Source: Terriglobia bacterium
GTDB lineage: Bacteria; Acidobacteriota; Terriglobia; JAIQFV01
Direction of reading: 5' to 3'
NCBI GenBank assembly: GCA_020073085.1
Contig: JAIQFV010000013.1
Span: forward strand, 1 to 64,000
DNA: 64,000 bases
The notes beneath the pieces were generated by a model that had not been told where the DNA came from, searched no databases, and saw only the letters and a program-made list of their open reading frames with translations. Shown here in pieces: positions 22,849-42,707 of the stretch (the stretch's first letter is position 1; the number at the start of each line of letters is the position of its first letter). A program made the position numbers and the translations under genes.

Positions 22849-23737
22849 AAATCATCTTGAGGATCAGCGGGCCGATGAGAATGAGAAACACCGCAGGCAT
22901 GATGAAGATAATCATGGGGAATATGATCTTGCTGGCAGCTTCGGCCCCCATTTTCTCCGCACGCGAGAACCTTTCGGCGCGCATACGTTCAGCCTGTGCC
23001 CGGAGCACCGGTCCAATAGAAGCGCCGAGCTGATCCGCCTGGATCAGGACGGAGGTAAACGAGGTTACCTCCACCATGGCACATCGCTGTTCCAAAGCGC
23101 GGAGTCCGTTGGCGCGCGTCGTCCCCAGACGGATGTCCTGCAGGAGCGTCCGAAGCTCCTCCTGCAAAGGCCCGGACGGCCCCTTATCCACGACCCGCTG
23201 GATGCCGCCTGTAAAATCCAGGCCGGCCTCGACCGTCAGAGTCAACAGATCCACCGACAGGGGCATGGCCCTGAGAATCTTCGTCTGCCGGTCCTTGATC
23301 ATGGATCCGAGCCACAGGTCCGCGAAATAGAATCCCATCACCGCCGCCAGGACCACGCCCAGAGGCCTCTTAAAGGTATCGACGGCAAGCGCCAATAACA
23401 ACGGGATGGCCACAGTGAAAAACACCTTGGCAGCGAGAAAGTGGTCCACCGTCATCTGGTCGGTGACCCCTGCCTGAACCAGCTTTTTCTGGACACCCTG
23501 GCGGTACTCTACCAACTTGTAGCGCCGCATGGATCCCGCATAAATATTCCAAATGGGGAAAAGCAGTCTCAGCACGGGCGACTTAATCTTTTTGCGGTCG
23601 ATGGTCTCCACGAGGCGGTCGCGAACGAGGCGAGCCTCCACGTCAGGGTATAACTCGGAAACCAGCAAGTAGGCGGCAATCACGCTCATCGCCAGTATCA
23701 CAAGCTTCCACAGGTTCCACACTAACTGTGCGTCCAT
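22835..23737 (-). CDS. tadC: TadC-like inner-membrane platform protein
   Basis: About 300 residues of the GspF/TadC family: two hydrophobic helices at the N-terminus, a cytoplasmic GspF domain (about 160-270, with AMPLSVDLLTLTVEAGLDF) and two C-terminal helices ending in a FLILIGPLI segment. TadB and TadC form the inner-membrane platform on which the TadA motor acts. I chose ATG 23737 (MDAQLVWNLWKL), since the longer frame runs into the upstream gene. In most Tad loci tadB and tadC are adjacent; here a pilin-like gene separates them. Confidence 0.9.
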   Translation of the reverse strand: MDAQLVWNLWKLVILAMSVIAAYLLVSELYPDVEARLVRDRLVETIDRKKIKSPVLRLLFPIWNIYAGSMRRYKLVEYRQGVQKKLVQAGVTDQMTVDHFLAAKVFFTVAIPLLLALAVDTFKRPLGVVLAAVMGFYFADLWLGSMIKDRQTKILRAMPLSVDLLTLTVEAGLDFTGGIQRVVDKGPSGPLQEELRTLLQDIRLGTTRANGLRALEQRCAMVEVTSFTSVLIQADQLGASIGPVLRAQAERMRAERFSRAEKMGAEAASKIIFPMIIFIMPAVFLILIGPLILKMIYGPK

Positions 23738-23783
23738 GGTGATCCCCGGGCCGGCCTCATTGACGAAGCCGGAATTTAAGGTT

Positions 23784-24026
23784 TCATTCTCCTGCGATGC
23801 TCTGTGCGATCCAGGACTGGGCCATCTGGGTGAGCAGGTCTTCAATCTTCGGCGCGACCATCCGATAAATAACTGCCGCCAACAGCCCGAGCATCAACAA
23901 AAGTAACACGTACTCAAAGATCGCTTGTCCGCCCGCGCTGCGTCGCCGGGTCCTCCAGAGTCTGCTGAGACGTGTCTGCATCCACGACAGGCAATAACGA
24001 AATTCCATGCAGCCGGGCAGGGCCAT
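23784..24026 (-). CDS. Flp-like pilin protein between tadB and tadC
   Basis: 80 residues with a basic leader (RLWRTRRRS), the prepilin processing motif AGG|QAIFEY and one hydrophobic helix (VLLLLMLGLLAAVIY). Glutamate at +5 and tyrosine at +6 after the predicted cleavage site match Flp pilins. The ATG at 24026 has GAGG eight bases upstream and lies four bases after tadB. Its position inside the platform genes is unusual and suggests a structural or initiating minor pilin. It is paralogous in its N-terminus to the three small pilin-like genes at 32.3-33.2 kb. Confidence 0.75.
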   Translation of the reverse strand: MALPGCMEFRYCLSWMQTRLSRLWRTRRRSAGGQAIFEYVLLLLMLGLLAAVIYRMVAPKIEDLLTQMAQSWIAQSIAGE

Positions 24027-24029
24027 CGC

Positions 24030-24899
24030 TCACACCTCAATCTTTACAATCTGCATCATCATCCAGTAACCCATGCTCACCAAACCAGCCACGAGGAGGA
24101 TTACAATCCAGCCGAGCGCCGTCGTGTACAGTGGTTTCACAAACTCGGGATCCATCATATAGAACATGAACACGACCGCCAGGGGCATGAGGGCAATCGC
24201 CCGCCCCTGAAACATCCCCTGGGCCGTCAGCGCCTTGATCTTGTTTTCCACCTTCTTGCGTTCCTGAATGGTATGGGAGATGACGTCGAAAATCTCCGTC
24301 AAATTTCCTCCGGTCTCCCGGATGGTCACCAGGGAAGTGATGACCATCTTCAAGTCTTCAATCGGCAGACGATTGGCCATATTCAACAGGGCATCATCGA
24401 GCAGCACCCCGAGCCGGGTCTCCTTCACGACGATGGAAAATTCCTCCGCAATCGGAGGTTTGATTTCCTTCACGACCAGGTCCACGGCCTGGGGCAGACT
24501 CAGGCCGGAGCGCAGCGCGCTGGCCATCAAGGTCAGGGTGTCGACCAATTGGGCGTCAATCCGATCGAACCGGCGTTTGCGAAGATACTTCACCACCGTG
24601 CGCGGAATCAAATAGCCGGCCACGAGGCCCACCAGGGGAAGCATGATGGAGGTGTAATCAATCATCACACCCAGCGCCGCTAACCCGAGCATGGAGCCGA
24701 TTAAAATCTGTCGGCACCGCCTCGGGGAGACGGTCTTGCGCTGCTCCGAAAATTCATTGGACATCCACTGACTGTACTTATCCACGTTCGCATTGAAGCG
24801 CTCCGCCAGTGGAGGGTAAAGTTGATAACCAATGAAGCCGACCAGAATCCCGAAGATCAGCACCACCAGCCATCTGAATATCAGGAAAAATAGGTTCAC
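24030..24899 (-). CDS. tadB: TadB-like inner-membrane platform protein
   Basis: 289 residues of the TadB branch of the GspF superfamily. Helices are visible near the N-terminus (FFLIFRWLVVLIFGILVGFI) and around 85-115, then a GspF core (about 140-250, with ALRSGLSLPQAVDLV and TGGNLTEIFD) and two C-terminal helices. The GTG start at 24899 has a purine-rich GGAGAAGGAGAG leader. It follows the motor ATPase gene by 39 bases, as in standard tad loci, and would form the assembly platform with TadC. Confidence 0.92.
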   Translation of the reverse strand: MNLFFLIFRWLVVLIFGILVGFIGYQLYPPLAERFNANVDKYSQWMSNEFSEQRKTVSPRRCRQILIGSMLGLAALGVMIDYTSIMLPLVGLVAGYLIPRTVVKYLRKRRFDRIDAQLVDTLTLMASALRSGLSLPQAVDLVVKEIKPPIAEEFSIVVKETRLGVLLDDALLNMANRLPIEDLKMVITSLVTIRETGGNLTEIFDVISHTIQERKKVENKIKALTAQGMFQGRAIALMPLAVVFMFYMMDPEFVKPLYTTALGWIVILLVAGLVSMGYWMMMQIVKIEV

Positions 24900-24938: not shown

Positions 24939-27170
24939 TCAGGCCGTCTGGATCAGGAATATCTCCCTGGGAATGGTGATGCCCCGCTGCTGCAACTTCT
25001 CGACAAACCTGGGCACGATTCCCGTGGGCACGAACTGCCCCAGCACTTTTCCCTCGGGGGACATTCCGGTTTGCTTGAAGATGAAAATATCGGACATCGT
25101 AAAGACACTGCCTTCCTGTCCGGTCACCTCGGAAATGTGGGTGATTTTACGGCTGCCGTCCGCGAGGCGCGACTGCTGCACGACAATCTGGATGGCCGAA
25201 GCGATTTGATCGCGGATGGCTTTGGACGGCAGGTCCAGTCCCGCCATCAGGCTCATGGTCTCCAGCCGCGAGAGGGCGTCGCGCGGCGTATTGGCGTGGA
25301 CGGTCGTGAGCGATCCGTCATGGCCCGTGTTCATCGCCTGGAGCATGTCCAGGGCCTCGCCTCCGCGGCATTCGCCCACCACAATGCGGTCCGGCCGCAT
25401 ACGCAAACAGTTTCGCACCAGATCGCGGATCGTGATCGCTCCCTCTCCCTCGATGTTCGCCGGTCGGGATTCCAGACGGACCACGTGGTCCTGGGGCAAC
25501 TGCAGTTCCGCCGAGTCTTCCACGGTCACAATGCGCTCATCCGCGGGAATAAAGGAGGAAAGAATATTGAGCAACGTCGTTTTTCCAGAGCCCGTGCCGC
25601 CCGAGATGACCACGTTTTGGCGCGCCCGGACCGCCGCGGCCAGCAACTGAGACATCTGATTCGTCAGCGTGTTGTACTGGACGAGGTCTTCGACCTTCAA
25701 GCGCTTTTTGGGGAATTTGCGGATCGTCAGACATGGCCCGCCCAGCGCCAGGGGTGGAATGATGGCATTGACGCGGGACCCGTCGGAAAGGCGGGCATCC
25801 ACCATGGGCGATTTTTCATCAATGCGTCGGCCCAGCGGGGCCACAATGCGCTCGATCACCCCGCGCAATTGTTCGTTGGTCAGAAACCGTGACTTGCTCA
25901 GCTCGATCTTGCCCCTGCGCTCCACATAGATCTGGTCGATGCGATTGACCATGATTTCCGTGATGTCCGGGTCGGCCAGCATCCCTTCGAGAGCGCCCAG
26001 CCCGAGGGCTTCGTCAAAGATCTCCTTTACCAGCTCCTTGCGCTGTTCGCGGGTCGCCGTCAATCCTTTTAGCTCTTCATCCAGCAGGGCGACTATCTTC
26101 ATTTCAGCGCGCTGCCGGACCTCCTGGACCTTGGTGGGATCCTGGCTCACGAGGTCCGACTTCACAATTTTCAGCTCGTCCACCAGCCGTTTGTGAATGC
26201 GCAGTTTCAGGTCGAGGAACTTCTCTTCCGTGGTACGCTCGCCACTGATCGGGACCACCACCCCGCCGGCGGCGGCAGGCACCGGTCCCGCGGAAGCGCG
26301 AAACTCGGGCGCGGGCGCACCCCGCTGTTGCCGCGCCATGGCCCCCAGTCGGCGGAAGTCGGTCCGCAATTGCTGGTGAAGCATCTGGCTGGTGGCGTCG
26401 ATGGCGCGCGTAATCGCATGCCGCGCGTCCATGAGCACGAGCGGCGTGGCCATCGACATGGACAACGAAATCGCATCTCCGTCCTCAGGAATCTGCACGC
26501 TGAGGGGAAAGTTCAAACTGCGTTCCATGACCTCCGGACTCACCAGGGCCTTCGCCGTCACTCGATTTGCGACGACCCGGAAGATTTCGCGGGCAAAATG
26601 CAGCGACTGGAGGTATTCCAGCTTGCGTTTCGCGCGCGTCACTGAAAGCATGTCGGGAGTCACCAGCAGGGCAATGACGTCCGAGTTGTCGAAGATTTCC
26701 AGGTTGGTGGAATCCAGATCCGTGGAGGTGTCCACCACCACGTAGTTATACCCCCCTCGGACCAGGTTCATAATGCGATTGATATGGCCTTCGTTGATAA
26801 GCTTGCTTTGGAAGGATTCGTTAATCGCCACTAAGACATCGATGCCCGAGGAGTGGTGAGTGAAATAGCCCTTCACCAGGGCAGGCTGCAACCGGCCCAG
26901 CAAGGGGATGAGGTCGGCGATGGCCTTGGGTTTGTCGACGCCGAGCAATTGGGCCACATCGCCGGGCAGCGGTAGGCCCATGTCGAGCAACAAGACTTTT
27001 CCCTTGCTCTCGCGCATGAGGCTGATGGCCAGGTTGACGGCGAACAGCGTTTTGCCGCAAGCGCCCTTGCCCGAATGGACGGTGATAATATGTCCCGCGG
27101 ATTCCGCGCTCAATGTCCCCTCTCCTCCGCTCAATGGCCCGCTGGAGTGCGCAACAACTCCGATCTCCAC
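24939..27170 (-). CDS. TadZ-TadA (CpaE-CpaF) fusion ATPase
   Basis: 743 residues joining two Tad proteins usually encoded separately. Residues about 25-265 are a MinD/CpaE-like P-loop domain ([26 protein letters not shown]), which in other systems localises the machine to the pole. After a Pro/Ala-rich linker (about 280-310), residues about 315-743 are a full CpaF/TadA motor with Walker [15 protein letters not shown], Walker [17 protein letters not shown] and the [12 protein letters not shown] His box. GTG start at 27170 with GGAGG close upstream. No frameshift or internal stop separates the halves. The fusion ties motor and localisation factor one to one. Confidence 0.92.
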
Positions 27171-27203: not shown

Positions 27204-28550
27204 CTACTTCTTTTTCTTCGTTTTCTTGGTCTTGTCGTCTTTCTTGGTGTTGACGTCGGGAGTGCCCATTTCCTTGTCCGTCGCCGTCAGATCCTGGTAT
27301 TGATCGAAATTCTTCTGGGTCTGCCCGGCTGCGTTTTGACCTGCCTCGGCCGCGCTCCTGACGAGGCGAGGCGTCGCAAACATTACCAGGTCAGTCTCAT
27401 CCTTCCGAAACGCTGAAGACTTAAACAAATTTCCCAGGGCCGGAAGGTTCCCCAATGCCGGGATCTTGTCCACCTGGAGGCTGTCCTCGTTCTGAACGAG
27501 CCCGCCCAGAACAATGGTTTCTCCTTCATGAACGAACAGTTTCGTGTCCACCTGGTTCTTCACAATGCCCGGGGGACTGTCCGCCGTCCCCTGTCCGCTC
27601 AGACGGCTGGCCTCGATGGAGATCGCCATGGAAATGTTGTTCAGCTGGTCGACTTGGGGGAGAAAGTCCAGCTTCAACCCGAATTCCTTATACTGGACGG
27701 AGAACTGACCCAGCCCCTGGGCCACACGGATCGGAATCTCCCCTCCCACGAACAGGTGTCCTTTTTCTCCGCTGCGGGTGATGATGGTGGGATTCGAGAG
27801 AATACGTCCCTTGCTTGTCGACGTGATCGCCTGCAACTGCGGGAGGCTGATGGTGCCCGTAATCGGGCTGAGGGCCGCTCCTCCTTTCGACTTGAAACTC
27901 AAGGGGTTCAGCGAGACCGGAGTGCCCGACCATTGCACCCCCAGATTCCGCAGATAGGCCCGGTCGACTTCCATGATCTTTACATCCAGCTGCACGGTGC
28001 GGATTGAAGAGGCCTGTTGCTCGTCCATCAGTCGTTGCGTTTCCTTGGACATTTTCACCAGGTTCAGAACGTCCTTGCGACCCGCGACGACTTTGTTGAT
28101 CCGATCCATGTCGTCCTGGGTCAAGACCTCCCCATCGATGACCACCTGGGACCCGACCGCGCGAAACTTAATGCCTTCAATGGTTCCAATGATCTGCTGT
28201 AATTCCTGCATGGTTTGTTTCACATTGGTCGGGTTTATATAGATCTGGATTTCATCCCGCATGGCCCCTTGTTGGTCCCACAGGATGAGCTTGGTGATGC
28301 CCACGGCTCGGCCAATCATCAAGACCTGGGTGCGTTCCTTGATGATCTCGATCTGGCACACCTTGGAATCGCCTATGGATATGTTGCCGATCTTATAATT
28401 CATCGTGAGGGTCTTCTGGTCTCCCACAAACAGGGTTTGGTCTTCAGCCCACGTGGTCTGAATTCCGGCCAGCAGGAGCAGTACGCCCAGCAATCCCAGG
28501 GCTGGCCCGAAATAATGACGATTTTCTTCCTTCCAAGTTGTCTTTTTCAC
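27204..28550 (-). CDS. cpaC: Tad secretin (RcpA/CpaC)
   Basis: Outer-membrane secretin of the Tad pilus. It has a signal peptide (GLLGVLLLLAGIQTTWAE), an N-terminal pilus-assembly domain (about 40-110, with ITKLILWDQQGAM), a BON-like segment and a secretin core (about 245-415) with the VPVALGNLPALGNLFKS-type family signature visible as KIPALGNLPALGNLFKS. The C-terminus is a lysine-rich tail. I prefer the GTG at 28550, which has GGTGGG upstream and places the signal peptide near the start. An upstream GTG at 28643 overlaps the cpaB stop (GTGA) and is the alternative. Confidence 0.92.
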   Translation of the reverse strand: MKKTTWKEENRHYFGPALGLLGVLLLLAGIQTTWAEDQTLFVGDQKTLTMNYKIGNISIGDSKVCQIEIIKERTQVLMIGRAVGITKLILWDQQGAMRDEIQIYINPTNVKQTMQELQQIIGTIEGIKFRAVGSQVVIDGEVLTQDDMDRINKVVAGRKDVLNLVKMSKETQRLMDEQQASSIRTVQLDVKIMEVDRAYLRNLGVQWSGTPVSLNPLSFKSKGGAALSPITGTISLPQLQAITSTSKGRILSNPTIITRSGEKGHLFVGGEIPIRVAQGLGQFSVQYKEFGLKLDFLPQVDQLNNISMAISIEASRLSGQGTADSPPGIVKNQVDTKLFVHEGETIVLGGLVQNEDSLQVDKIPALGNLPALGNLFKSSAFRKDETDLVMFATPRLVRSAAEAGQNAAGQTQKNFDQYQDLTATDKEMGTPDVNTKKDDKTKKTKKKK

Positions 28551-28639
28551 CTTACTACCCACCTTTCTTTTGAGCGGGCAATGCGCCTCATTCACTGATT
28601 TCGCGTGCCGCTCATTCCCGGGTTCCTCGACTTCTGAGA

Positions 28640-29518
28640 TCACTGTCCACGAATCTCGCGCCAGGCGGCAGCATGCCTCGGAACGACAGGCATATCCACC
28701 TTCAGCACAGTAATGGCCGTGGAATTCTTCAACTCGACCACCGTGTCCTTCTCCAGATAGGAGCGCAAGACGAGCGTGAGGTCGCCAATATTCTGCGCCA
28801 GTATCAGGTCCTGCGCGTTTTCCGGGGTCATGGCGAAAGTCACTGAAGTATAGGCCACGCCGGTCGTATCCGCCTTGCCCGGGTTCCCCGTCTGGCCGTA
28901 TTGCTCGAGCCGCTGTTTCGCCTGGGTCCGTTCCTGACCCGAAAGATTGAATGCCTCTCCGGTGTCTCGCCCCGTCGCCAGGACGAGGACATTCTGGAAA
29001 AGTGTCATCGCCTGGGACTGCTGGTTGGCAGCAATGGACATGGGGTTGGCCATGGCGTTTGCAGGAAACGAGCCGAATTTAACCAGGGCCACGATGTCGA
29101 CGTAGTTTCCCGGCTGGACCAGCGTAGCCACACCGTTGATATCGTTGACTGCAACGGTCACCGCCCGTTTCCCGCGCGGGACCTTGAAGGCCAGGCCGGT
29201 ACCCCTTCCATAAGAACTCAACTGCGTGCCGGAAATCTGCGAGCCTTTCAAGACAGGGACCGTTGAGACCTGTCCGATCACCAGTCTCAGATCCGAGAGG
29301 GGTCCGGGCTGGAGATACTTTTGTGGGATTTTCGCCAGCTTGACCTGGCTCTCATCGATCGGCGTGTTTGCCAGGATATCGTCCGTGGCAACCACTGCAT
29401 CCCGGGGAGTGGCGAGTTCGAGCAAGGCGGCCTCCCTGGTGTTGAGGTACACGGCAACGAGAATCACGGCGACCACCGCCAGAAGCAACGACATCAAAAC
29501 CCGTGGTTTGATTTTCAT
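28640..29518 (-). CDS. cpaB: CpaB/RcpC Tad pilus assembly protein
   Basis: About 292 residues: a membrane anchor (SLLLAVVAVILVAVYL), a SAF domain (about 40-105, with AVVATDDILANTPIDESQV) and a RcpC/CpaB domain (about 110-230, with RGKRAVTVAVNDINGVATLVQPG). It is a periplasmic partner of the secretin, encoded just upstream of it as in other tad loci. I chose ATG 29518 over TTG 29521, with GAGAGG six bases upstream. Confidence 0.93.
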   Translation of the reverse strand: MKIKPRVLMSLLLAVVAVILVAVYLNTREAALLELATPRDAVVATDDILANTPIDESQVKLAKIPQKYLQPGPLSDLRLVIGQVSTVPVLKGSQISGTQLSSYGRGTGLAFKVPRGKRAVTVAVNDINGVATLVQPGNYVDIVALVKFGSFPANAMANPMSIAANQQSQAMTLFQNVLVLATGRDTGEAFNLSGQERTQAKQRLEQYGQTGNPGKADTTGVAYTSVTFAMTPENAQDLILAQNIGDLTLVLRSYLEKDTVVELKNSTAITVLKVDMPVVPRHAAAWREIRGQ

Positions 29519-29631
29519 CAAAGGCCTCTCTTAGAGTTTCATTATCAAATTATTCACTGAGATCATCGGACATTCACCAAGAACCACCCATTCTCGAAGC
29601 AAAGAAACTCCGCCCACGATGCTTCTCTCTT

Positions 29632-30345
29632 TCACGGACTGCATGTCGCAGTCAATCCCCACGGGGCTACCCCGCCCAGGATCGTCGTTGGACAATATCC
29701 TCCGCCGGGCTGCGGTCCCGCCTGGGCGCCGACGCAACTGATATGGGGGAACTTTGGTTCGGAAAAGGGATCGTGCATAATTGCTCGCATCTGCATCTGC
29801 ATTGTGGTGACTGGGTTCCCGTCGCCGTCATGTCCTATGACGCAATCACACGATCCCGTGCAAGGAGTTCCTTGGCCTTGTGCGTTGTTACTGGCATCAC
29901 GGAAAGTGGTCCCAAAATCCGGCAACGCGCCGCCCCCGGTCCCCCGGCTCAAATGAAAGTTCCGGCTCACCCGCATGGAAACGCCGGAGAGGCTGCCCTT
30001 AAAGAAGGGGATGAGCGGAATCGTCTTATTGTCCCCGCCGCTCATCCCATTGGTCAAGGTCAGGGGCTTCTCGAGATCGGAGGAACTCAGGGTAAACGAA
30101 TTATCCTTCTTGTTCTGATCCCGTGACTCCTTAAACGCGTCGTAGTACGCGTTGGCGGTCATCTGAAAAAAGGTGTTGTGGACGATGAACAACTGGTAGA
30201 TGGCGGCAATGATCATGAACATCAGGAACATGACAAAGAGGGTTTCCATGGTCGACTGGCCCGCCTTCGACGCCCAGGAACGCGGTCGAGAAGTACCTCG
30301 CTTAGCCCTGCGGGTTATGGCTGCTCTGTTGGTGAGACTGAACAT
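29632..30345 (-). CDS. TadE/pseudopilin-like membrane protein
   Basis: About 237 residues. After a basic leader comes a pilin-like junction SKAG|QSTMETLFVMF and one hydrophobic helix, then an extracytoplasmic domain with several cysteines near the C-terminus (CTGSCDC, CVGAQ, CPTTIL). Glutamate is at +5 after the predicted cleavage, as in TadE, but the tyrosine is missing. ATG 30345 has GGAGG five bases upstream. It lies within the Tad run between the tadG-like gene and cpaB. The exact family is not recognised; it is most likely a minor pseudopilin capping or priming the pilus. Confidence 0.7.
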   Translation of the reverse strand: MFSLTNRAAITRRAKRGTSRPRSWASKAGQSTMETLFVMFLMFMIIAAIYQLFIVHNTFFQMTANAYYDAFKESRDQNKKDNSFTLSSSDLEKPLTLTNGMSGGDNKTIPLIPFFKGSLSGVSMRVSRNFHLSRGTGGGALPDFGTTFRDASNNAQGQGTPCTGSCDCVIGHDGDGNPVTTMQMQMRAIMHDPFSEPKFPHISCVGAQAGPQPGGGYCPTTILGGVAPWGLTATCSP

Positions 30346-30585
30346 CCATTCCTCCACACATCTCGAATGCCCTGACGGGCAAGCGTGCATTCCCCTACTC
30401 TATCTGCTGAATTCCAATCCTTCCGTCACGAATCGGTCCGCCAATAGCTTTCCTCGAGAGCTCGCCTGCCTTGGATCGGTCGACCGCTGCAAACTCGAAC
30501 ACAAGTTCGTTGCCTGCTCTTTTCCGGCGTCCTCCGGGGGGACATCCAAGGCCCCGGGTAGAGCCGGGCCGGGTTCGTCGCTGTG

Positions 30586-31530
30586 TCAATGAACCAGCGG
30601 GTGCCAGAACGGGATGTTCGTGCTAAATTCACCCCCTACCACACAGGTCGTGGCAGCGCCAAAATCCGTGATGGCTAATTGCCCGTAGGTGATGGTCGTC
30701 GCGAGATAACCCATGTAGTTTGTGAAGTGGTCCTTCATGGGCAACATCCGCGTCGAATACCCGTTGCTGTGAGCGTCGCCTTCCGGATCTAATTCGCCGT
30801 TGGTGGGTTTTGCCAGGGCCACCGCAGTCATCGCGGGAAGCCTGAAAACGCTGGGCAGAACGGGCGCGCCCGTTTCGCTGACATGCGCCCACCAGAAGAA
30901 ATTAACCGTTTCATGGCCTTTCTTGGCCTTGTACCAAACGGTGCTGAGGTCGATGGCGCCGTGCGTCGTAAATGTCCAGGGGGGCGTGTAGCCAATATAA
31001 TAGGTGTTTTCGCCCTCCATTTTAGACACTTTGTCCTTCTCGATCAGCTCGGCGGCCGCGTAAAGCACGGGGTTGCTGACATAGTCCACCGACTCTTTCG
31101 GGAAGAGTTCTTTGACGTTGTAGTTGGTTACCTCGATCGCCGCCGACGCCGCGTTCTCATTCCCCAACTGGTCCTTGATCTCGAACAATCCCTTGTAGAT
31201 CGGGTTCCCGACCTCCCACAGGATATCGGAGATGTCGGCCAGGGGCTCTAAAGTCAGGGTCCAGTACGAGGACAAGAGTGCGGCGGGGATGAATACAAAG
31301 TTGTGCTCGTAGTCATTTAAATCGGAAAGGCCATTGAGCTCGGAGGCCTGTTTGGAAGCGCCCGTCCAGGCGCCGGCGTCGGCGACCATCTGGAGCTTGA
31401 CCCGGCGGTTAATCGCTTCCCCCAAATTGACCACGAATGCCAGGAACAAAAAGAGCGTCCAGAAGGCAGCAATAAAGAATATCGTGGTTTGTCCCCGCTC
31501 ATTCTGAAGGCGTTTCTTCGCGGGTTGCAT
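30586..31530 (-). CDS. TadG-like Flp pilus assembly protein
   Basis: 314 residues with a short leader, the junction ERG|QTTIFFIAAF, one helix (FIAAFWTLFLFLAFVVNLGEAI) and a segment RRVKLQMVADAGAWTGASK that matches the conserved NRRxLQxAADAAA region of TadG-like proteins. The large remaining domain is extracytoplasmic. ATG 31530 follows GGGGAGG by nine bases. The longer frame starting at 31557 has no better signal. It is probably a minor pseudopilin or an anchoring protein of the Tad machine. Confidence 0.8.
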   Translation of the reverse strand: MQPAKKRLQNERGQTTIFFIAAFWTLFLFLAFVVNLGEAINRRVKLQMVADAGAWTGASKQASELNGLSDLNDYEHNFVFIPAALLSSYWTLTLEPLADISDILWEVGNPIYKGLFEIKDQLGNENAASAAIEVTNYNVKELFPKESVDYVSNPVLYAAAELIEKDKVSKMEGENTYYIGYTPPWTFTTHGAIDLSTVWYKAKKGHETVNFFWWAHVSETGAPVLPSVFRLPAMTAVALAKPTNGELDPEGDAHSNGYSTRMLPMKDHFTNYMGYLATTITYGQLAITDFGAATTCVVGGEFSTNIPFWHPLVH

Positions 31531-31597
31531 CGTGAAAATCCTCCCCACACGGTTCAAAAACTGGTTCTCGAATCGATTTCAATCGGCGCGGTCAGCC

Positions 31598-32125
31598 TTA
31601 GTAGTTGGGCTTGTTGTCTCCCTTTTCGTCGTTTTCCTTAATGGATTCCTGTCTCATGGGCATGCGGGCGATGATCTTGATTCCAGAAGAAGAGGCCCCC
31701 GACAGGAGCCTCGGGACGCGCAAGCTCGTCTTGTAGGTCACCTCGATACAAGCATCTTTGTTGTCTCCCCCGCCGCCACTTCCGCTGATGCCGTGACAGG
31801 ATCCTTTGTTGACATCAACCCCATCAATGTCGCCCAGAATATCGGTATTCCACTTCATCGCCCGCAATACATCCTTGGCAGCGTCTTTGGCCTTGTCCAT
31901 GTCATCGCCGTTGTCCACGTTCACGGACCAGGCACGGGCGGCCGCAAAGGCGGCGTAATTGGTCAGCAGCTTCGTACTGGCCACCATGGAGATGATCACC
32001 AGGGCATAAAGCAGGAAGAAAAAGATCACAAAGTTGAGGATGAATTCCAGGAGTACCTGGCCCTTTTCGTTTCTTCTTCTTCGGGACGCGCCTGTCCGGA
32101 CGCCTTCTTTTGGGAGATTGGTCAT
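31598..32125 (-). CDS. tadE: TadE-like minor pseudopilin
   Basis: 175 residues with a basic leader, the junction EKG|QVLLEFILNFVIF (glutamate at +5, phenylalanine at +6) and one hydrophobic helix, followed by a soluble extracytoplasmic domain. This is the standard TadE layout. TadE and TadF are processed by the same dedicated peptidase as the Flp pilin. It is the first of the larger pseudopilins after the small pilin genes. A peptidase gene (tadV/cpaA) is not in the window. Confidence 0.83.
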   Translation of the reverse strand: MTNLPKEGVRTGASRRRRNEKGQVLLEFILNFVIFFFLLYALVIISMVASTKLLTNYAAFAAARAWSVNVDNGDDMDKAKDAAKDVLRAMKWNTDILGDIDGVDVNKGSCHGISGSGGGGDNKDACIEVTYKTSLRVPRLLSGASSSGIKIIARMPMRQESIKENDEKGDNKPNY

Positions 32126-32321: not shown

Positions 32322-32585
32322 TCAGTTTCCTTGGACCGTGGAAACGTTCGTGATGGCGGCCTGAATGTTCTTAATGAGGTTGCTCACCAGGTTCTTGAAC
32401 GTCGGAGAAAGGAACATGGCGATGGCAATCAACAGGCTTACCATGATGACCACGATCACCAGATATTCCAAGGTGGTCTGCCCGCGCTCTTCCCGGAGTT
32501 TTCGGCGGAGTGCCGATGCTCCAAACAATCCCTTCCAGGACCACTTCACCGCTGCTTCACTCAAATGCAACAGCTTGACGAACAT
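32322..32585 (-). CDS. Flp-like pilin
   Basis: 87 residues with leader, junction ERG|QTTLEY and helix LVIVVIMVSLLIAIAMFLS, then a short helical tail. Glutamate +5 and tyrosine +6 match Flp. It has the strongest ribosome site of the pilin genes (AAGGAGGACAGA before ATG), so it is the best candidate for the major pilin subunit of this Tad system. Confidence 0.83.
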   Translation of the reverse strand: MFVKLLHLSEAAVKWSWKGLFGASALRRKLREERGQTTLEYLVIVVIMVSLLIAIAMFLSPTFKNLVSNLIKNIQAAITNVSTVQGN

Positions 32586-32806: not shown

Positions 32807-32992
32807 TCAAAGGCTGGCTGAAGTCGTATAAACGGAGATAACCGCCTTGATAATCAGCCCAACGACCTGGATCCAACGGGGAACCACAAATACAAAAAGA
32901 GCGATCGTAATTCCGCCCACCAGGATAAGGAGGGAGAGATACTCAAATAAGGTCTGCCCACGGGTCTCTCGAAGCTTAAGCCTTCGTTTCAT
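32807..32992 (-). CDS. Small Flp-like pilin
   Basis: 61 residues with leader MKRRLKLRETRG, junction RG|QTLFEY and one long hydrophobic helix, ending in a polar tail. The size is that of classic Flp pilins. No strong ribosome site was found before the ATG. The 220-base space downstream, before the next pilin gene, holds no credible gene; a 78-codon frame there lacks any protein-like feature. Confidence 0.75.
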   Translation of the reverse strand: MKRRLKLRETRGQTLFEYLSLLILVGGITIALFVFVVPRWIQVVGLIIKAVISVYTTSASL

Positions 32993-33027: not shown

Positions 33028-33213
33028 TTAAGGTACCGTCCGTGCAAGGGATTTTGCGACGGTGCCGAATGCGCCGGCCAGCACCTTCCCAAACTTCATG
33101 AAAACATAAAGGACAAACACAAAAAATATCAGCAACAGGACGTACTCAAGTAAAGCCTGGCCTTTTGAAGTGTGTCGTTTTTGAAGTAGCGAGAAACGGA
33201 GTCTCTTGCTCAT
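33028..33213 (-). CDS. Small Flp-like pilin
   Basis: About 61 residues from the ATG at 33213 (MSKRLRFSLLQ), with junction SKG|QALLEY and helix VLLLIFFVFVLYVFMKF. The frame continues upstream to 33342, but that extension overlaps the end of the membrane-protein gene and has no pilin leader features, so the internal start is preferred. It is the first small pilin gene in transcription order, directly after the four GT-C-like genes. Confidence 0.73.
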   Translation of the reverse strand: MSKRLRFSLLQKRHTSKGQALLEYVLLLIFFVFVLYVFMKFGKVLAGAFGTVAKSLARTVP

Positions 33214-33283
33214 CTTCTGGCAGTAAGCGACAAAGTAGTAGGAAGGATGATCAATATACGATTTCTTAACATCTCGGAGTATG

Positions 33284-34948
33284 TCAAAAATGAATTGTCG
33301 TGTCAAGCACCGGTCTGCTGACCTGTCCGGCCCTTTTGACAAATATCACGCAGGTGGAGTCGAGGAATCGTCGCTGCCAGTCGGAATCTGCATCCAGCAC
33401 ATAGCGCAAAGCGAAGTGGGGAGGGATCATGACCCATTGAATCTGATAGCGAGCGAAGACTTCCTTCCAATTGCCATGGCCGCGACTGCCCTGGGGGGTG
33501 CTGAACAATTCAACGTAATTTCGCGTGAATGTCTCCCCATAAAAATCAATCCGTCCATCCACAAATACCCTGATATCCGGATAGAAATTGTAAATGAGGT
33601 ATCCCCCCAGGGTTAATTCGTTGAAGACGTTTCCTGCGGGTCGATCGCTCTTGAGATACTGCAGGGCCGCCGTCGGATAGTCCTCGCCGGAGAATTGAAA
33701 ATTCATCATCGGCCGGCCTCCCAGGATTCCATGGTGAGCTACGATCCAGATGAAAACGAGTAGGAGGGTTGAAGAAAGAATGGGAATCTTGACGTGTCGC
33801 TCTATCGCGACCACCCTTTCAAGGCGATTGAACATCCGCTCCAACCGGTCTCGAAGCCGAGGGACCTGAGCCAGCCACTCCCCCAACGGTGGCTTCAGTC
33901 CCTCGAGCAAGCGGGCATAAATGGGAGCACAGATCAAAAGCATGATGGGGATATTCCGTAAGGATACAAGGCCAAGGGCAACCCACGCGCTCAGCAAAAA
34001 GCACTCCTCCGACCGAAGACGATAATGTGAATACCTTATCAGGAATAAGAGTGAAACCACCGCCAGCAGAAAAGGCTGGAAGACCGCTATTTGAAAATGT
34101 GGGGAAGACAGTTCGTTTTGAGAGAAGACGAGGTCGTGGACCATCCTCAGATACCTAAATAGGTAGGGGTAGATGGTGTACCCGTAAGGGTTGACCAGGG
34201 AAGCCGCAAATGTGGCGGCTGCCAAGACTCCCGTGTGTTTCAGCTTTGAAGTCACCGCCGGCCGCCGCCCTGCTGATGAGAAAATGTATTCCAGCAATGC
34301 GCTGCACCAGAAGATCAATACCAGGATCAGCCCTGCGACAAACCCAGGGTGCATGTTCACCCAGAGGACCATCAGCAACGGCAGGGGCCACAGCCTCTGG
34401 GCCGGGATTTTCCCCTGCAGAAACGGATCCAGAAAAAAGACAAACAGAACGGAGAACAAGTACGACATGACGAGGGGCCGGGCCGTCCAGTGAAATTTGC
34501 TTCCCAGGAGGACGAATAAAAGCAGGGCGAACGAGAGGGTGAAAGAGAAACCTTCCCGCCGGAGATGTTTGTACAAGAGGGTGTAGCTTCCGGCGAGCAT
34601 CAGGACCACAAAGAACGCGACGCCATTCAAGCCGAAGCGGCGGTCCAGGGCGCCAAAGATGATCTCCGTGCCCCACTGCCAGGCGACCCATCTTGTGTCG
34701 GGCATGGAAAAGGAAAAAGGGTCTTGATGCGGAATCTGATGGGTGTTCAGAATAAACTGTCCCGTGCGGATATGCCACCCCGGATCTCCATCCCGGAAGA
34801 GGTATAAGCTTGGCCGCCCGAAAAGCATGATGCACACCAGGGTCATGAAGCACACCTGTGCCGTCGAAGGGAGCAGCCAACGCAGGAACCGCCATCGATC
34901 TTTTGCAGCGTCGTGATCGCCGGAAGGAGGAGGCTGAGGATCTTTCAT
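33284..34948 (-). CDS. GT-C-like polytopic membrane protein, paralogue 4 in order
   Basis: About 554 residues with roughly ten transmembrane helices. After the first helix comes the conserved loop DGDPGWHIRTGQFI and IPHQDPFSFSMP, then WQWGTEIIFGAL. An acidic residue in the first outer loop is typical of GT-C glycosyltransferases of the ArnT/PMT kind, which use polyprenyl-linked sugars. The C-terminal ~130 residues form a soluble domain with VFVDGRIDFYG and WVMIPP. I chose ATG 34948; a longer start at 35104 overlaps the previous gene. It is the last of four tandem paralogues and lies just upstream of the pilin genes. Sugar transfer is inferred, not shown. Confidence 0.7.
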   Translation of the reverse strand: MKDPQPPPSGDHDAAKDRWRFLRWLLPSTAQVCFMTLVCIMLFGRPSLYLFRDGDPGWHIRTGQFILNTHQIPHQDPFSFSMPDTRWVAWQWGTEIIFGALDRRFGLNGVAFFVVLMLAGSYTLLYKHLRREGFSFTLSFALLLFVLLGSKFHWTARPLVMSYLFSVLFVFFLDPFLQGKIPAQRLWPLPLLMVLWVNMHPGFVAGLILVLIFWCSALLEYIFSSAGRRPAVTSKLKHTGVLAAATFAASLVNPYGYTIYPYLFRYLRMVHDLVFSQNELSSPHFQIAVFQPFLLAVVSLLFLIRYSHYRLRSEECFLLSAWVALGLVSLRNIPIMLLICAPIYARLLEGLKPPLGEWLAQVPRLRDRLERMFNRLERVVAIERHVKIPILSSTLLLVFIWIVAHHGILGGRPMMNFQFSGEDYPTAALQYLKSDRPAGNVFNELTLGGYLIYNFYPDIRVFVDGRIDFYGETFTRNYVELFSTPQGSRGHGNWKEVFARYQIQWVMIPPHFALRYVLDADSDWQRRFLDSTCVIFVKRAGQVSRPVLDTTIHF

Positions 34949-35070
34949 AATGGAAGATAGGATCGTCCCATCCAAAGTGGTCGGAAGAGATAATGAATTC
35001 CCATTCGAGGTTGATGAACAGGGGCTTTCATTCGAACCGCGCGTGACCGGAGTCCTGAGATTCGCCGACG

Positions 35071-36699
35071 CTATCCCATCTCCTGACGAATGAAGATCAC
35101 GCAATTCTCATCGAGGAAGACGCGCTTCCAGTCCGGGTCTGAATCCAGCACACAGCGCAATGCGAACTCTGGCCGAATCATCACCCACTGGATATGGTAG
35201 CGGTCAAACACCTCCTTCCAGTTCTCTTTCCCGTTCACCGCGTTGGGGGTGTTGATGAGGTCAACATATTGCTGGGTGAAGGCCTCGCCATACAGGTCTG
35301 TCCGGCCGTCCACAAACACCTTGATGTTCGGGTAGAAGTTGTAGATCAAATATCCCCCCATCGTCCACTCGTTAAAGACATGTCCTGGCGGCCGGTGGGT
35401 CTTCAGAAACTCAACAGCGGCCGCCGGATATCCCCGCTCCTCGAGAAAACGGAAGTCCATGAGCCGTTGGCCCCCCCAGTACCCGTGATGAACGACAATC
35501 CAGATCAGGATGAGAACACAGGCGGACGAGGAAAGGTGTCGATTGAACTGGCGTTCCAACGAGACCGCCAACTCGAACCGGCGGATAAACCGGTCGCCTC
35601 CAGCTCTGATCTTCGGCACCCTTGACAGGCCTTCTGCCAGGGGCTGCTTGAGACCCAGCAGCATGCGGGCATAAATGGGGGCGCAGATCAAGAACATCAC
35701 CGGGATATTTCTCAGGGAAACCAGTCCCAGAGCGATCCAGATGGTCAGATTGAGCACCTCATCCACTCGGAGCTGGTAGCGGGAATAGCGGGTCAGGAAG
35801 ATGAGTGCTATGACTGCGAGAAGAAAGGGTTGAAAAATCGCCAGTTGAAAAATGGGGGAAGTCAATTCGTTCATCATATGGAGGTGGTGAACGGTTTTGA
35901 AATACTCGTACAGATAAATGTAGAGTTTATATCCATTGGGATTGAAGAGGGTGGCGGCAACGGTCAGGGCGGCCACTCGACCGGTGCTGACTATCTTGAA
36001 ACGCAACGCGGGCCGCTGCATGCTCTGCGCGAAGATATATTCGATCACCGAGCCCAGGAAAAATGTTACAACCAGCGTTACTCCAGCAATGAAGCCGGGA
36101 TGCAGGTTCACCCACAAAACCATCATTACGGGCAGAATCCACATCCGCCGTGGAGCGATTTTTCCCTGGGCGAAGCGGTCCAGGAAATAAAAGAACGGGA
36201 TGACGAAGAGATAGGAGACCACGTGCGGCCGGGCAGCCCAATGAAAACTGCTGCCGAGAATGACAAATAGAAGGAGGGGAAAGGAAAGGAGAAATGAAAA
36301 TCCTTCATCCCGGAGCAGTTTATAGAGGAGGGTGTAGGACGAGGCCAGAACCAGAACAATAAAGAGGACCACGCCGTTCAACCCATAACGCCCATGGAGC
36401 GCGGCAAAGATCGTCTCCGTTCCCCACTCGTAGGCCACCCACCAGGCATGAGGCATGGAAAACGAAAAGACATCGGAATGGGGGATCCTGTGAGTTTCCA
36501 GGATGTGCTGTCCGGCGCGGATGTGCCAGCCGGGATCGCCGTCCAGAAAGTAGTACTGGCTGACCCGCGAAAACAGCATGATCAGGAGCAGAGTAATGAA
36601 ACAGACCTCGGCCGTCGAGGGGAGGATCCAACGCAACCATCCGGCGGGCGCCTTGGCAGGGGGAGAGGTATCAGCCAGAGATATGTGAGCCTCATTCAT
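35071..36699 (-). CDS. GT-C-like polytopic membrane protein, paralogue 3 in order
   Basis: About 542 residues. Same architecture as its neighbours: helix, DGDPGWHIRAGQHI loop, IPHSDVFSFSMP, WVAYEWGTETIFAAL, about ten helices, then a soluble tail with VFVDGRTDLYG and WVMIRPEFAL. ATG 36699 (MNEAHISLADT) is chosen because the longer frame adds a basic stretch with no membrane features. It resembles its neighbours closely in the first loop and in the tail, but differs in helix sequence, so the duplications are not recent. Confidence 0.7.
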   Translation of the reverse strand: MNEAHISLADTSPPAKAPAGWLRWILPSTAEVCFITLLLIMLFSRVSQYYFLDGDPGWHIRAGQHILETHRIPHSDVFSFSMPHAWWVAYEWGTETIFAALHGRYGLNGVVLFIVLVLASSYTLLYKLLRDEGFSFLLSFPLLLFVILGSSFHWAARPHVVSYLFVIPFFYFLDRFAQGKIAPRRMWILPVMMVLWVNLHPGFIAGVTLVVTFFLGSVIEYIFAQSMQRPALRFKIVSTGRVAALTVAATLFNPNGYKLYIYLYEYFKTVHHLHMMNELTSPIFQLAIFQPFLLAVIALIFLTRYSRYQLRVDEVLNLTIWIALGLVSLRNIPVMFLICAPIYARMLLGLKQPLAEGLSRVPKIRAGGDRFIRRFELAVSLERQFNRHLSSSACVLILIWIVVHHGYWGGQRLMDFRFLEERGYPAAAVEFLKTHRPPGHVFNEWTMGGYLIYNFYPNIKVFVDGRTDLYGEAFTQQYVDLINTPNAVNGKENWKEVFDRYHIQWVMIRPEFALRCVLDSDPDWKRVFLDENCVIFIRQEMG

Positions 36700-36823
36700 A
36701 GGGATCAGGCCGGAGTCTTCAACTCCCCGATTGCGGGGACGGATTTGCCCCATTCGACGGCGGGACGTCAATATCGGATTGCCGGGTCTACTCCTCCGGT
36801 TGATTCGCCCTGGGTCATCGCGT

Positions 36824-38461
36824 TCATTTTAGCATTTCCTTTCGCCTGAAAATCGCGCAGTGCTCGTCCAGCAGCAAACGCTCCCATTCCTGATCGGCAT
36901 CCAGGACCAGCCGCAAGGGGAGATTCGGGCGGATGAAGACCCATTGAATTTGGTATCGGTTGAATACCTCGCGCCAATTCCCGGTTCTGTTTTCAATCTG
37001 TGGAGTATTAATCACATTTAGATAGAGTCGCGCAAAATCCGCCCCGTAAAAATCCAGCCGTCCATCGGCAAACACCCGGATGTCCGGATAAAAGTCATAG
37101 AGGAGATACCCTCCCATGGCCCATTCATTAAACACATGTCCCGAGGGCCGGTGAGTCCGGAGATAGTTCATCCCGGCGGCCGGATAATCGGATTCGTCGG
37201 TGTAGCGAAAATGAAGGATCTCCCGGTCTCCCCAGTGCCCCTGGTGCGCCACACTCCAGACCAGGACCAGGAGGACGCCCACAAGGAGAACGTGGCGGTT
37301 GAAGAATTGCTCCATCGAAATCGCCCGCTCAAGGCGGCGGCAGAAAGTCTGGATGCGCGCCTGAAGCCGTGGCGCTCGCGAAATCCATTCCTGAAAAGGT
37401 GAATTCAACCCCCTCAGCAGGCGCGCATAAATGGGAGCACAGATGAACATCGTTACGGGGATATTCCGAAGCGAAATCAAGCCAAGCGCAATCCAGACAC
37501 TCAGGGTAAAGGTCTCCTCCAACCGGAGCCGGTAGCGAGTGTACCTCACGAGGAAAATCAAAAGGAGAATGGACGCCAGGTAGGGCTGGAAGACGGACAT
37601 CTGGAAGATGGGGGAAAGGAGTTCGCTGACCGGGAGAAGGGTGTGAACCGTGCTAAAAAATCGAACCAGATAAATATAGATTCCGAATCCATAGGGATTG
37701 ACCAGCGAGGCCAGCCAGGTGGCGGCAGCGATCACACTGATTTGGCGGAGTCGTGCTCGCTGGGACGCACGCTGCTCCGCTCTGGAAAAGGTGTAACGCA
37801 GCGCGGCGCTAATGAGAAAAGTGAAGAGGAGGATTTCCCCGGCGATGAAACCGGGGTGCAGGTTCACCCAGAAGATCATCAGTATCGGGAGGAACCACAG
37901 TCGTCGGGCCGGAGTCGAACCTTGAGAGAACCGATCGAGAATGAAGATGAACAGCACCACAAACAGATAGGACACCACCTGCGGCCGCGCCGCCCAATGA
38001 AAACGGCTCCCCAGGATGACGCAGAGGAGGGTGAGAAATGAAAGAGTAAAGGAAAACCCCTCGCGCCGGAGCAGCCGATAGAGCAGGGCATAGCTTGCTG
38101 CCAGGATGAATACAACAAGAACAATAATGCCGTTCAGACCAAAATGACGGTCCAGAGCGGCGAAGATCACCTCTGTTCCCCACTCGTACGCGACCCACCA
38201 GGCATGGGGCATACTAAATGAAAAGATGTCCTGATGGGGGATGCGGTGGGTGTCCAGGATGTACTGGCCGGCGCGGATGTGCCAGCCGCGATCGCCGTCA
38301 TAAAGAAAGTATGGATCCGTGCGCCCGAACAGGAGAATCAGAACCAGTGTGAGAAAACAGATCTCAGCCGTCGAGGGGAGAAGCCACTGCAGCCAACCGG
38401 CAGGCTTCTTTGAAAAGGCAGGAAGAGGAGCCGTGGAAACTTGTAGGTCATTCATATCCAT
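36824..38461 (-). CDS. GT-C-like polytopic membrane protein, paralogue 2 in order
   Basis: About 545 residues with the family loop DGDRGWHIRAGQYI (arginine in place of the usual proline), IPHQDIFSFSMP, WVAYEWGTEVIFAAL, ten or so helices and a tail with VFADGRLDFYG and WVFIRPNLPL. The start is uncertain: ATG 38461 or 38455 lack a clear ribosome site, and a TTG at 38569 gives a long low-complexity leader. It follows the first paralogue closely, so translation within the array may be coupled. Confidence 0.68.
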   Translation of the reverse strand: MDMNDLQVSTAPLPAFSKKPAGWLQWLLPSTAEICFLTLVLILLFGRTDPYFLYDGDRGWHIRAGQYILDTHRIPHQDIFSFSMPHAWWVAYEWGTEVIFAALDRHFGLNGIIVLVVFILAASYALLYRLLRREGFSFTLSFLTLLCVILGSRFHWAARPQVVSYLFVVLFIFILDRFSQGSTPARRLWFLPILMIFWVNLHPGFIAGEILLFTFLISAALRYTFSRAEQRASQRARLRQISVIAAATWLASLVNPYGFGIYIYLVRFFSTVHTLLPVSELLSPIFQMSVFQPYLASILLLIFLVRYTRYRLRLEETFTLSVWIALGLISLRNIPVTMFICAPIYARLLRGLNSPFQEWISRAPRLQARIQTFCRRLERAISMEQFFNRHVLLVGVLLVLVWSVAHQGHWGDREILHFRYTDESDYPAAGMNYLRTHRPSGHVFNEWAMGGYLLYDFYPDIRVFADGRLDFYGADFARLYLNVINTPQIENRTGNWREVFNRYQIQWVFIRPNLPLRLVLDADQEWERLLLDEHCAIFRRKEMLK

Positions 38462-38572
38462 CGAACTCGAAAGGAGGTCTTCGGATGAGCCGCGGAGTGT
38501 CGGCACAATCGTTCCGGAGCCTGTGGAACTGGTCTCGCACGGAATACGGTTCCGGCGATTTGTCTTCAACCG

Positions 38573-40219
38573 TCATGACATGTCCTCCGGTTTCTTTCTG
38601 ACAAAAATCACGCAGTGGTCATCTAGGAAGCGGCGTTCCCAAGCGGGATCGGCGTCCAATGCAAGACGTAAGGCAAAGGTCGGCGGAATCATTACCCATT
38701 GGATCTGGTAGCGATCGAATACTTCCTTCCAGTCGTCTTTCGCGGTTTCACCCTCAGGGGTATTGATGAGCTTGACGTACTGGCGTGTGAATGCCTCTCC
38801 GTAGAAATCCAGGCGTCCGTCGGAAAAGACTTTCATGTTCGGATAGAAGTTATAAATGAGATACCCCCCCATCGTCCACTCGTTAAAGACGTTTCCCGAG
38901 GGAGGGTGCGCTTGAAGGTACTGCAGGGCGGCCGCCGGATAACCCCATTCCTCGAGGAAATGGAAATCCATGACTCGCTTTCCACCCCAGTATCCCTGGT
39001 GGGCTACAACCCAGAGCATCATGAAGGCAAGCCCCAACGAAAGCAAATGGCGGCGGAAATGCTGCTCCATCGATATAACGAGTTCGAGGCGGTGAAACAA
39101 TCGATGCAAAGTGGGCCGTATTTTCGGCAATTGGGAAAGCCATTCAGTAAAGGGATCCTTCAGCCCTTGGATGAGGCGGGCATAGAGGGGGGCGCAGACC
39201 AAAAGCATCACCGGGATGTTCCTTAGGGAAACCAAACCCAAGGCAACCCAGATGACCAAGGTGAGCCCCTCATCCACCCGAAGCTGGTACCGGGAGTACC
39301 GCAACAGGAAGATGAGCGCGATCACAGCCGCGAGGAAGGGCTGATAAACCGCTATCTGAAACATGGGGGAAGAAAGCTCATTATGGCTGAGGGCTATGTT
39401 GTGAACGGTCTTAGAATACTCAAACAGGTAAACGTAGAGCCGGTAGCCGTATGGGTTCAAAAGAGAAGCTGCAATGGTTGCAATGGCAATTCCCCCGATT
39501 TGACGAATTCTGAGGTTGATAGCTGAACGCGCTTCAGCGAGGGAGAAGGCAAGCCCGAGCACGTTGCCAACTAGAAATGTCAAGATCAATAAGACCCCTG
39601 CCAGGAAACCAGGATGCAGGTTTACCCACAGGATCATCAGGAGCGGCAGGGCCCAGAGCCGCTTGACCGGAATGGTTGCCCGCATGTACCGGTCGAGGCG
39701 GGAATAGAAGAGGGTGACGAACAAGTAGGACAACATGAACGGTCGTGCCGCCCATTGAAATTCGCTTCCGAGGATCACAAACAAAAGAAGAGGAAATGAG
39801 AGGCAGAATGAGAATCCTTCACTTCTTAAAGACTTGTAGAGGAGGGTATAAGTTGTAGCCAAGACAAAGACCACAAAGAGGGCGATGCCGTTGAAGCCGA
39901 GGTATCGATCGAGGGCGGCAAAGATGACTTGAGTGCCCCACTCATAGGCGACCCACCAGGCGTGGGGCATCGAGAAGGAAAAGATATCGTGATGAGGGAT
40001 GCTCAAGGTCTTAATGATGTACTGACCCGTTCGAATATTCCACCCGGGATCGCCGTCTCGAAACAAAAATTGACTCAGGTGGCCGAAGAGCATCAGAAAG
40101 ATCAGCGTCCAGAATAACACCTCAGAACTGGTGGGGAAGGTCCACTGGAGCCAGCGGGAAAGAGTTTTTGCTCTGCCGGTCTTAGGCGGATCGGCTAAGA
40201 TGGAAACCTTCATGGACAT
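38573..40219 (-). CDS. GT-C-like polytopic membrane protein, paralogue 1 in order
   Basis: 548 residues, the first gene of the four-gene array. It has the loop DGDPGWNIRTGQYI (asparagine replaces the histidine found in the other three), SIPHHDIFSFSMP, WVAYEWGTQVIFAAL, about ten helices, and a soluble tail with VFSDGRLDFYG and WVMIPPTFAL. ATG 40219 or 40213; GGGGGA lies upstream of the former. The His-to-Asn change next to the conserved acidic residues may alter activity. The upstream gap to ruvA (40220-40435) holds no gene. Confidence 0.7.
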   Translation of the reverse strand: MSMKVSILADPPKTGRAKTLSRWLQWTFPTSSEVLFWTLIFLMLFGHLSQFLFRDGDPGWNIRTGQYIIKTLSIPHHDIFSFSMPHAWWVAYEWGTQVIFAALDRYLGFNGIALFVVFVLATTYTLLYKSLRSEGFSFCLSFPLLLFVILGSEFQWAARPFMLSYLFVTLFYSRLDRYMRATIPVKRLWALPLLMILWVNLHPGFLAGVLLILTFLVGNVLGLAFSLAEARSAINLRIRQIGGIAIATIAASLLNPYGYRLYVYLFEYSKTVHNIALSHNELSSPMFQIAVYQPFLAAVIALIFLLRYSRYQLRVDEGLTLVIWVALGLVSLRNIPVMLLVCAPLYARLIQGLKDPFTEWLSQLPKIRPTLHRLFHRLELVISMEQHFRRHLLSLGLAFMMLWVVAHQGYWGGKRVMDFHFLEEWGYPAAALQYLQAHPPSGNVFNEWTMGGYLIYNFYPNMKVFSDGRLDFYGEAFTRQYVKLINTPEGETAKDDWKEVFDRYQIQWVMIPPTFALRLALDADPAWERRFLDDHCVIFVRKKPEDMS

Positions 40220-41459: not shown

Positions 41460-41511
41460 GAGCAACTCCCGCGAATTCGTCGTGTGGCGCGATCCGCCTC
41501 GACAGATCGCT

Positions 41512-42645: not shown

Positions 42646-42707
42646 GAACTCCTCCTAAAATTTTCCCGACGAATGTCTCTGTTTGGAATAGTGGTGCGCC
42701 TGAATCC

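Follow-up and report, generated by a model that had tools for sequence, protein, structure and literature searches.

What four consecutive membrane-protein genes of a soil acidobacterium do, and why they lie beside pilin genes, is the question raised by a 64,000-nucleotide stretch of Terriglobia bacterium DNA (GenBank assembly GCA_020073085.1, contig JAIQFV010000013.1, positions 1 to 64,000; hereafter the window). The genes occupy positions 33284-40219 of the minus strand, directly upstream of three Flp pilin genes and a complete Tad operon on the same strand, as had been anticipated in an earlier note that read membrane proteins followed by pilins. With a probability of roughly two in three, we propose that they encode periplasmic glycosyltransferases that act on Tad/Flp pilin subunits, with the mechanism, donor and division of labour discussed below. 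The host genome is 5.8 Mb long and 98.7% complete, and no further copies were found in it at the search threshold.

The region contains four intact, successive open reading frames (ORFs) of about 542-554 amino acids. Copy 1 (38573..40219, minus strand, 548 amino acids), an STT3-like GT-C paralogue carrying D55, D57, N61, E281 and R333, is described by its ORF, by an AlphaFold2 model (m5a3259ddb3a5) and by fold and residue alignment. The ORFs of copies 2-4 open at distant TTG codons (36824-38569, 35071-36771 and 33284-35104, respectively), and their starts are likely the conserved internal ATGs at about 38461, 36699 and 34948, which yield copy 2 (36824..38461, 545 amino acids), copy 3 (35071..36699, 542 amino acids) and copy 4 (33284..34948, 554 amino acids), all on the minus strand and with 56%, 62% and 59% identity to copy 1, respectively. 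The description of the four as diverged paralogues of about 545 residues with two common motifs holds, in that the first-loop signature (DGDPGWNIRTGQ, DGDRGWHIRAGQ, DGDPGWHIRAGQ and DGDPGWHIRTGQ) and the VFxDGRxDxYG motif are present in every copy. The dN/dS ratio is about 0.10 for the two pairs of orthologues that the window and its sister genome G001 share, whose dS is near saturation; pairs that have diverged less give 0.12-0.19. These ratios indicate that the four ORFs are under purifying selection and thus are not chance ORFs. Intact frames, a dN/dS of about 0.1 and class-wide conservation together rule out chance or decayed reading frames. Copies 2 and 3 each group in the tree with one of the two G001 genes (L005:7968-9599 and L005:10001-11635, respectively), and the duplication therefore predates the split from G001, while the G041/G055 and G051 lineages represent separate expansions.

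Sequence models do not provide a name for this family. No Pfam model, PF13231 (PMT_2) included, matches any of the four proteins up to an E-value of 1, and no NCBIfam model does so up to 0.1, which bears out the earlier view of a family without a certain name. PF02516 likewise finds none of 39 family members up to an E-value of 1, and only stray Pfam matches occur among these relatives, the best being that of PMT_2 to one of the 39 with an E-value of 0.017. Membership of STT3 proper or of PMT_2 is ruled out by the sequence models and by the motifs described below. Sequence searches of the PDB, initiated with a single protein and then with a 39-row profile, returned nothing meaningful, so that the relation to solved structures is seen through fold and profile-profile comparison only.

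The AlphaFold2 model, built from an alignment of the 39 relatives, is predicted with a pLDDT (predicted local distance difference test) of 91 and a pTM (predicted template modelling score) of 0.90, and has a GT-C fold. The best Foldseek match is chain A of the human oligosaccharyltransferase complex OST-A, STT3A (E-value 6e-7); further chains of this complex follow, AftA ranks third and PglB 12th and 13th. Using VIA-align, the model could be superimposed best on STT3 (PDB identifier 8age_A) with a Z-score of 19.6 and a root-mean-square deviation (rmsd) of 4.8 Å over 456 aligned residues, followed by PglB (5ogl; Z 17.0), AglB (7e9s; Z 16.1), and DPY19 and ArnT (Z 15.1); these five align over the full length with Z-scores of 15-19.6, whereas Pmt1 reaches a Z-score of 16.7 but over 321 residues of the membrane part only. 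The C-terminal 137 residues, modelled separately with a pLDDT of 88, find the C-terminal domain of the archaeal AglB-S2 (3vu0) as the best Foldseek match in the whole PDB (E-value 1.9e-4), with a VIA-align Z-score of 9.1 and an rmsd of 3.1 Å over 110 residues. The first 29 VIA-align matches of this domain are all GT-C enzymes, with Z-scores from 10.0 to 5.3, and unrelated folds begin only at 4.3. These predictions support the view that the four genes encode GT-C-fold proteins related to STT3, PglB and AglB, including the C-terminal soluble domain. The initial description of the proteins as GT-C-like thus agrees with structure prediction and with fold and profile comparison, and among the enzymes proposed for comparison (ArnT, PglB and PMT) the STT3/PglB/AglB group is closest, above ArnT or PMT.

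Profile-profile comparison points in the same direction. Using hhalign, the family aligns with ten acidobacterial STT3-like proteins with a probability of 97.2% and an E-value of 3e-11 over 449 columns, as against a probability of 91% with the PMT_2 profile. The sequences of PglB and AglB, taken from PDB alignments, were then added to the STT3 profile alignment, and the residue correspondence to PglB is based on this profile alignment. Unforced, it pairs D57 with PglB D56, E281 with E319, R333 with R375, G451 with G467 and D467 with D481; upon realignment the pairs of E281, R333 and the C-terminal region are kept, while the alignment becomes shorter and the D57 region drops out. In PglB, E319 and R375 serve the metal and acceptor and the donor phosphates, respectively. 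All 53 sequences share nine residues without exception (W94, R159, W198, H202, P256, E281, R333, D467 and R469). Within the first periplasmic loop, D57 is present in 50 of the 53 and D55 in 46, with Glu in five others. Judging by how the helices are ordered in the model, the conserved loop residues should face the periplasm. Two elements of PglB were not recovered. No Asp aligns with the DxD (D154/D156) of its external loop 2 (EL2), where the predicted loop reads W-A-A-R-P with the invariant R159, and the WWD of the WWDYG motif is not kept, residues 447-451 of the window proteins being E-W-T-M-G, E-W-A-M-G or E-L-T-L-G with only the Gly general (x-[DYW]-x-[WFM]-G-G-[YF]-L across the family). 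Because the EL2 DxD and the WWD are not kept, we regard these proteins as an STT3-like GT-C family rather than as members of STT3.

The first loop also contains the residues whose variation had been taken as a hint of different donor or acceptor specificity. Both substitutions are present as described, copy 1 having Asn in place of His61 and copy 2 Arg in place of Pro58, but the case for a role in specificity is weak. Position 58 varies freely among the 53 sequences (T in 21, P in 7, I in 5, A in 5 and R in 2), the Arg being common to copy 2 and its G001 orthologue, and a specificity switch at this site is unsupported. At position 61, 50 of the 53 sequences have His, so that Asn61, seen only in copy 1, is the one real departure, one without known consequence.

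The association with Tad pili extends well beyond the window. Searches for the family and for rcpC in 61 related genomes, joined by hand, found the GT-C family in 30, rcpC in 33 and both in 28 (28/2/5/26; Fisher p 4.6e-10, treating as independent genomes that are not). The distance between the GT-C gene and rcpC is at most 10 kb in 25 of the 30 carriers, and mostly at most 1.5 kb; a same-strand ORF for an Flp prepilin was found near it in 18 of 22 rcpC-linked loci examined, which upholds and widens the tie to pili first suggested by gene order. The distance to flp is sometimes only 8-20 bp (8 bp in loci L057 and L055, 12 bp in L044), and in L057 the order is flp, GT-C, tadV (a prepilin peptidase, PF01478) and rcpC. 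As a control, we considered the PMT_2 glycosyltransferases of 13 of the 61 genomes; among the matches listed one only lies within 10 kb of rcpC, and GT-C genes in general are therefore not clustered at this gene. In one rcpC genome that lacks the family (G010:C3), a PMT_2 glycosyltransferase lies 8 kb away from rcpC and may be a replacement. When the phylum is sampled evenly, rcpC is present in 11 of 11 genomes with a match above 400 bits and in seven of 108 others (p 3e-11), the 400-bit line having been chosen after the list was seen. These distributions strongly support the family as an accessory gene of the Tad/Flp pilus locus. The GT-C gene travels with Tad pili across the class and therefore probably glycosylates pilus subunits.

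Genes adjoining more distant relatives offer clues to the donor. On Rhizobiales plasmids the relatives form modules of a GT2 glycosyltransferase, a methyltransferase, GtrA and GT-C, and in Phyllobacterium zundukense two Flp pilins adjoin such a set. GT2, methyltransferase and GtrA genes precede two GT-C copies in Sulfuricystis, and a related GT2 stands beside multi-copy GT-C tandems in the Terriglobia loci L058, L059 and L060. The linked GT2 proteins score best against the PgfS and ArnC models, below their curated cut-offs, which suggests a polyprenyl-phosphate sugar synthase. In one of the plasmid loci (L130:7848-9376; CP087971.1, Rhizobium sp. RCAM05350), two overlapping ORFs beside GtrA make up the GT-C relative, which, being split, may be disrupted.

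The analysis establishes the genes, their predicted fold, the correspondence of residues, purifying selection and the class-wide link to the operon, whereas catalysis itself, the acceptor, the donor, the type of linkage and any division of labour are inferred. The proteins would be inner-membrane GT-C enzymes that face the periplasm and are accessory to the Tad (type IVc) pilus operon. On the periplasmic side, each would bind a polyprenyl-linked sugar, with E281 and R333 near the phosphate and the metal and D57 as the candidate acceptor-activating residue, and would move the sugar onto Flp pilin or pseudopilin subunits that are still in the inner membrane awaiting assembly. A polyprenyl-phosphate monosaccharide is a likelier donor than a diphosphate oligosaccharide, and the sugar is probably attached elsewhere than at an N-X-S/T sequon. 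That four old paralogues are under purifying selection suggests a division of labour, in which they would differ in the subunits, the sites or the sugars that they serve. We also put forward, tentatively and with less confidence than even odds would warrant, that the family represents a Tad-pilus glycosylation branch of STT3-like tandem paralogues without the sequon motif, each adding one sugar or modifying one subunit so as to build a composite pilus glycan.

Several observations weigh against the proposal of Tad/Flp pilin glycosylation. Counterparts of PglB D154/D156 and of the WWD were not found, and the mechanism may thus differ from that of PglB. No GT2 or GtrA gene was found beside the GT-C genes of the window, and the host genome has one GtrA elsewhere and weak matches to the linked GT2 proteins (best E-value 2e-10). 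Mature Flp pilin 1 has three Ser/Thr residues only. The number of GT-C copies, four here and two in G001, does not follow that of the Flp pilins, of which there are three in both, and a scheme of one GT-C copy per pilin is ruled out by these counts. Among the 61 genomes, two carriers are without rcpC and five rcpC genomes are without the family. Across the phylum the weaker relatives have no significant association with Tad (p 0.07); the Tad link is therefore a trait of one branch of a wider family, which so appears to do other things too.

The proteins could instead act in the manner of GtrC and modify a polysaccharide or lipid of the cell surface (exopolysaccharide, O-antigen or glycolipid), their proximity to Tad genes reflecting a shared function in surface attachment. 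Three-component systems of GtrA, GtrB and GT-C classically modify O-antigen (PMC11127046), several of the plasmid modules have no annotated pilin in the stretch shown, and the weaker relatives occur in genomes that lack Tad. Against this, the GT-C gene often abuts flp, and in L057 it is placed between flp and tadV; homology scans of the Tad-linked loci, which are not fully annotated for polysaccharide genes, found pilus genes around it; and the PMT_2 glycosyltransferases do not display such clustering among the matches listed. We consider decoration of a polysaccharide or lipid unlikely.

Rather improbable, too, is a true PglB-like oligosaccharyltransferase that transfers an oligosaccharide en bloc from a polyprenyl diphosphate to pilins or other secreted proteins, an explanation that overlaps with pilin glycosylation by single sugars in its acceptor and differs in its donor. 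STT3, PglB and AglB are the closest in fold and profile, R333 corresponds to the R375 that contacts the donor phosphate in PglB, and N-X-S occurs near the end of Flp pilin 3 (ITNVSTVQGN, N-V-S) and of its sister L005:12348-12605 (ITNASSSF, N-A-S), with flanking tails that differ. Yet N-X-S/T is not general in the other associated Flp pilins, PF02516 is without a match, the EL2 DxD and the WWD are not kept, and the genes linked to the relatives point to a polyprenyl-monophosphate sugar. That catalysis was lost and the proteins serve as inner-membrane assembly factors of the pilus, as chaperones or scaffolds, is very improbable, for while one expected metal-ligand motif is absent and TfpY-type pilin accessory proteins of P. 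aeruginosa aid assembly and are not glycosyltransferases (PMC11841053), the conservation of the predicted active-site-facing E281, R333, R159 and H202 in 53 of 53 sequences, and of D57 in 50, is enzyme-like.

The putative acceptors and the pilus machinery follow the GT-C genes on the minus strand. Flp prepilin 1 (33028..33213), a candidate acceptor with a G001 counterpart found by phmmer, has its cleavage site in TSKG|QALLEYVLL, Flp prepilin 2 (32807..32992) in ETRG|QTLFEYLSL with the tail VYTTSASL, and Flp prepilin 3 (32322..32585) in EERG|QTTLEYLVI. Next are a TadE-like pseudopilin (31598..32125; PF07811 with an E-value of 7e-4, below the cut-off), a Tad/TadG-like protein (30586..31557; PF13400), a TadE-like ORF (29632..30390) with no convincing Pfam match that is conserved in the sister operon, RcpC/CpaB (28640..29521; PF16976) and the secretin RcpA/CpaC (27204..28643; PF00263). 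TadZ and TadA appear to be fused (24939..27170), because a MinD-like N-terminal part and a C-terminal TadA lie in one frame of 743 amino acids, which in most other Terriglobia loci is matched by two separate ORFs. TadB-like (24030..24899) and TadC-like (22835..23845) membrane proteins are assigned by gene order and by phmmer matches to genes at the corresponding position of other Tad loci. Promoter-like matches are no more numerous in this region than in shuffled sequences and thus at chance level; the best of them (33278-33306, minus strand; TTGACA-17-CATACT, 10/12, with TG preceding the second hexamer) is situated at the end of GT-C copy 4, some 65 bp ahead of Flp pilin 1.

The same strand continues downstream of the Tad operon with genes (11356-22492) for three FHA-domain proteins, a TPR protein, a PilB-like ATPase with an MshEN domain and a Ser/Thr protein kinase, a set that suggests phospho-signalling tied to the pilus. 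A PilX_N protein (PF14341; 55526-57622, plus strand) points to a separate group of type IVa minor-pilin genes at about 53-58 kb. A microcompartment vertex protein of the EutN/CcmL type (PF03319) and a class II aldolase are encoded just upstream of ruvA (41187-43511, minus strand), where more EutN-like and shell-like ORFs are recognizable by eye; the region resembles part of a bacterial microcompartment locus for sugar processing.

Adhesive pili of the Tad type are very widespread, and these hitherto unassigned genes, found with flp and Tad assembly genes in many Terriglobia, are a concrete candidate for glycosylation of Flp. No dedicated Flp pilin glycosyltransferase was found in the literature searched, whose coverage excluded most subscription journals; should the more tentative reading of a composite pilus glycan be true, Flp pilins would have a first family of glycosylating enzymes. 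At the level of the pilin there is a likeness to Aggregatibacter actinomycetemcomitans, whose Flp1 fimbrillin, likewise a Flp/Tad pilin, is reported to be glycosylated (PMC6182317, citing Inoue 2000). The arrangement of a GT-C gene beside a pilin gene recalls TfpW of Pseudomonas, a pilin arabinosyltransferase of the GT-C type encoded beside the gene of the type IV pilin that it glycosylates (PMC11841053). TfpW acts on type IVa pili, whereas the window family goes with Tad (type IVc) pili and has an STT3-like architecture. The modules of the distant relatives resemble the Gtr systems (GtrA flippase, GtrB undecaprenyl-phosphate-sugar synthase and a serotype-specific GT-C) and the PgfS-type glycosylation of proteins in Streptococcus, but no adjacent GT2 or GtrA was found in the window and the acceptor of Gtr systems is O-antigen. 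With ArnT/PMT_2 and PMT the window proteins share the GT-C fold (Z 15.1 for ArnT, 16.7 over the membrane part of Pmt1), and differ from ArnT/PMT_2 in lacking a PF13231 match and in a weaker profile match than that to STT3. Larger STT3/AglB-like proteins with PF02516 matches above the cut-off, one of them with WWDQG, were noted in other Acidobacteriota (L062, L065-L071), and N-glycosylation-type enzymes thus seem scattered in the phylum. To STT3, PglB and AglB (CAZy GT66) the window family is alike in its full-length GT-C fold, in a C-terminal globular domain that is closest to the one in AglB-S2, and in the counterparts of D56, E319, R375, the C-terminal motif's Gly and the Asp that follows it. 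It differs in having no PF02516 match, no EL2 DxD, an invariant Arg (R159) in the predicted loop and a replaced WWDYG, and in being compact (about 540 amino acids) and Tad-linked. If our proposal is true, it would represent an STT3 architecture that works without a sequon-reading motif, which bears on the evolution of oligosaccharyltransferases and on tools for protein glycosylation.

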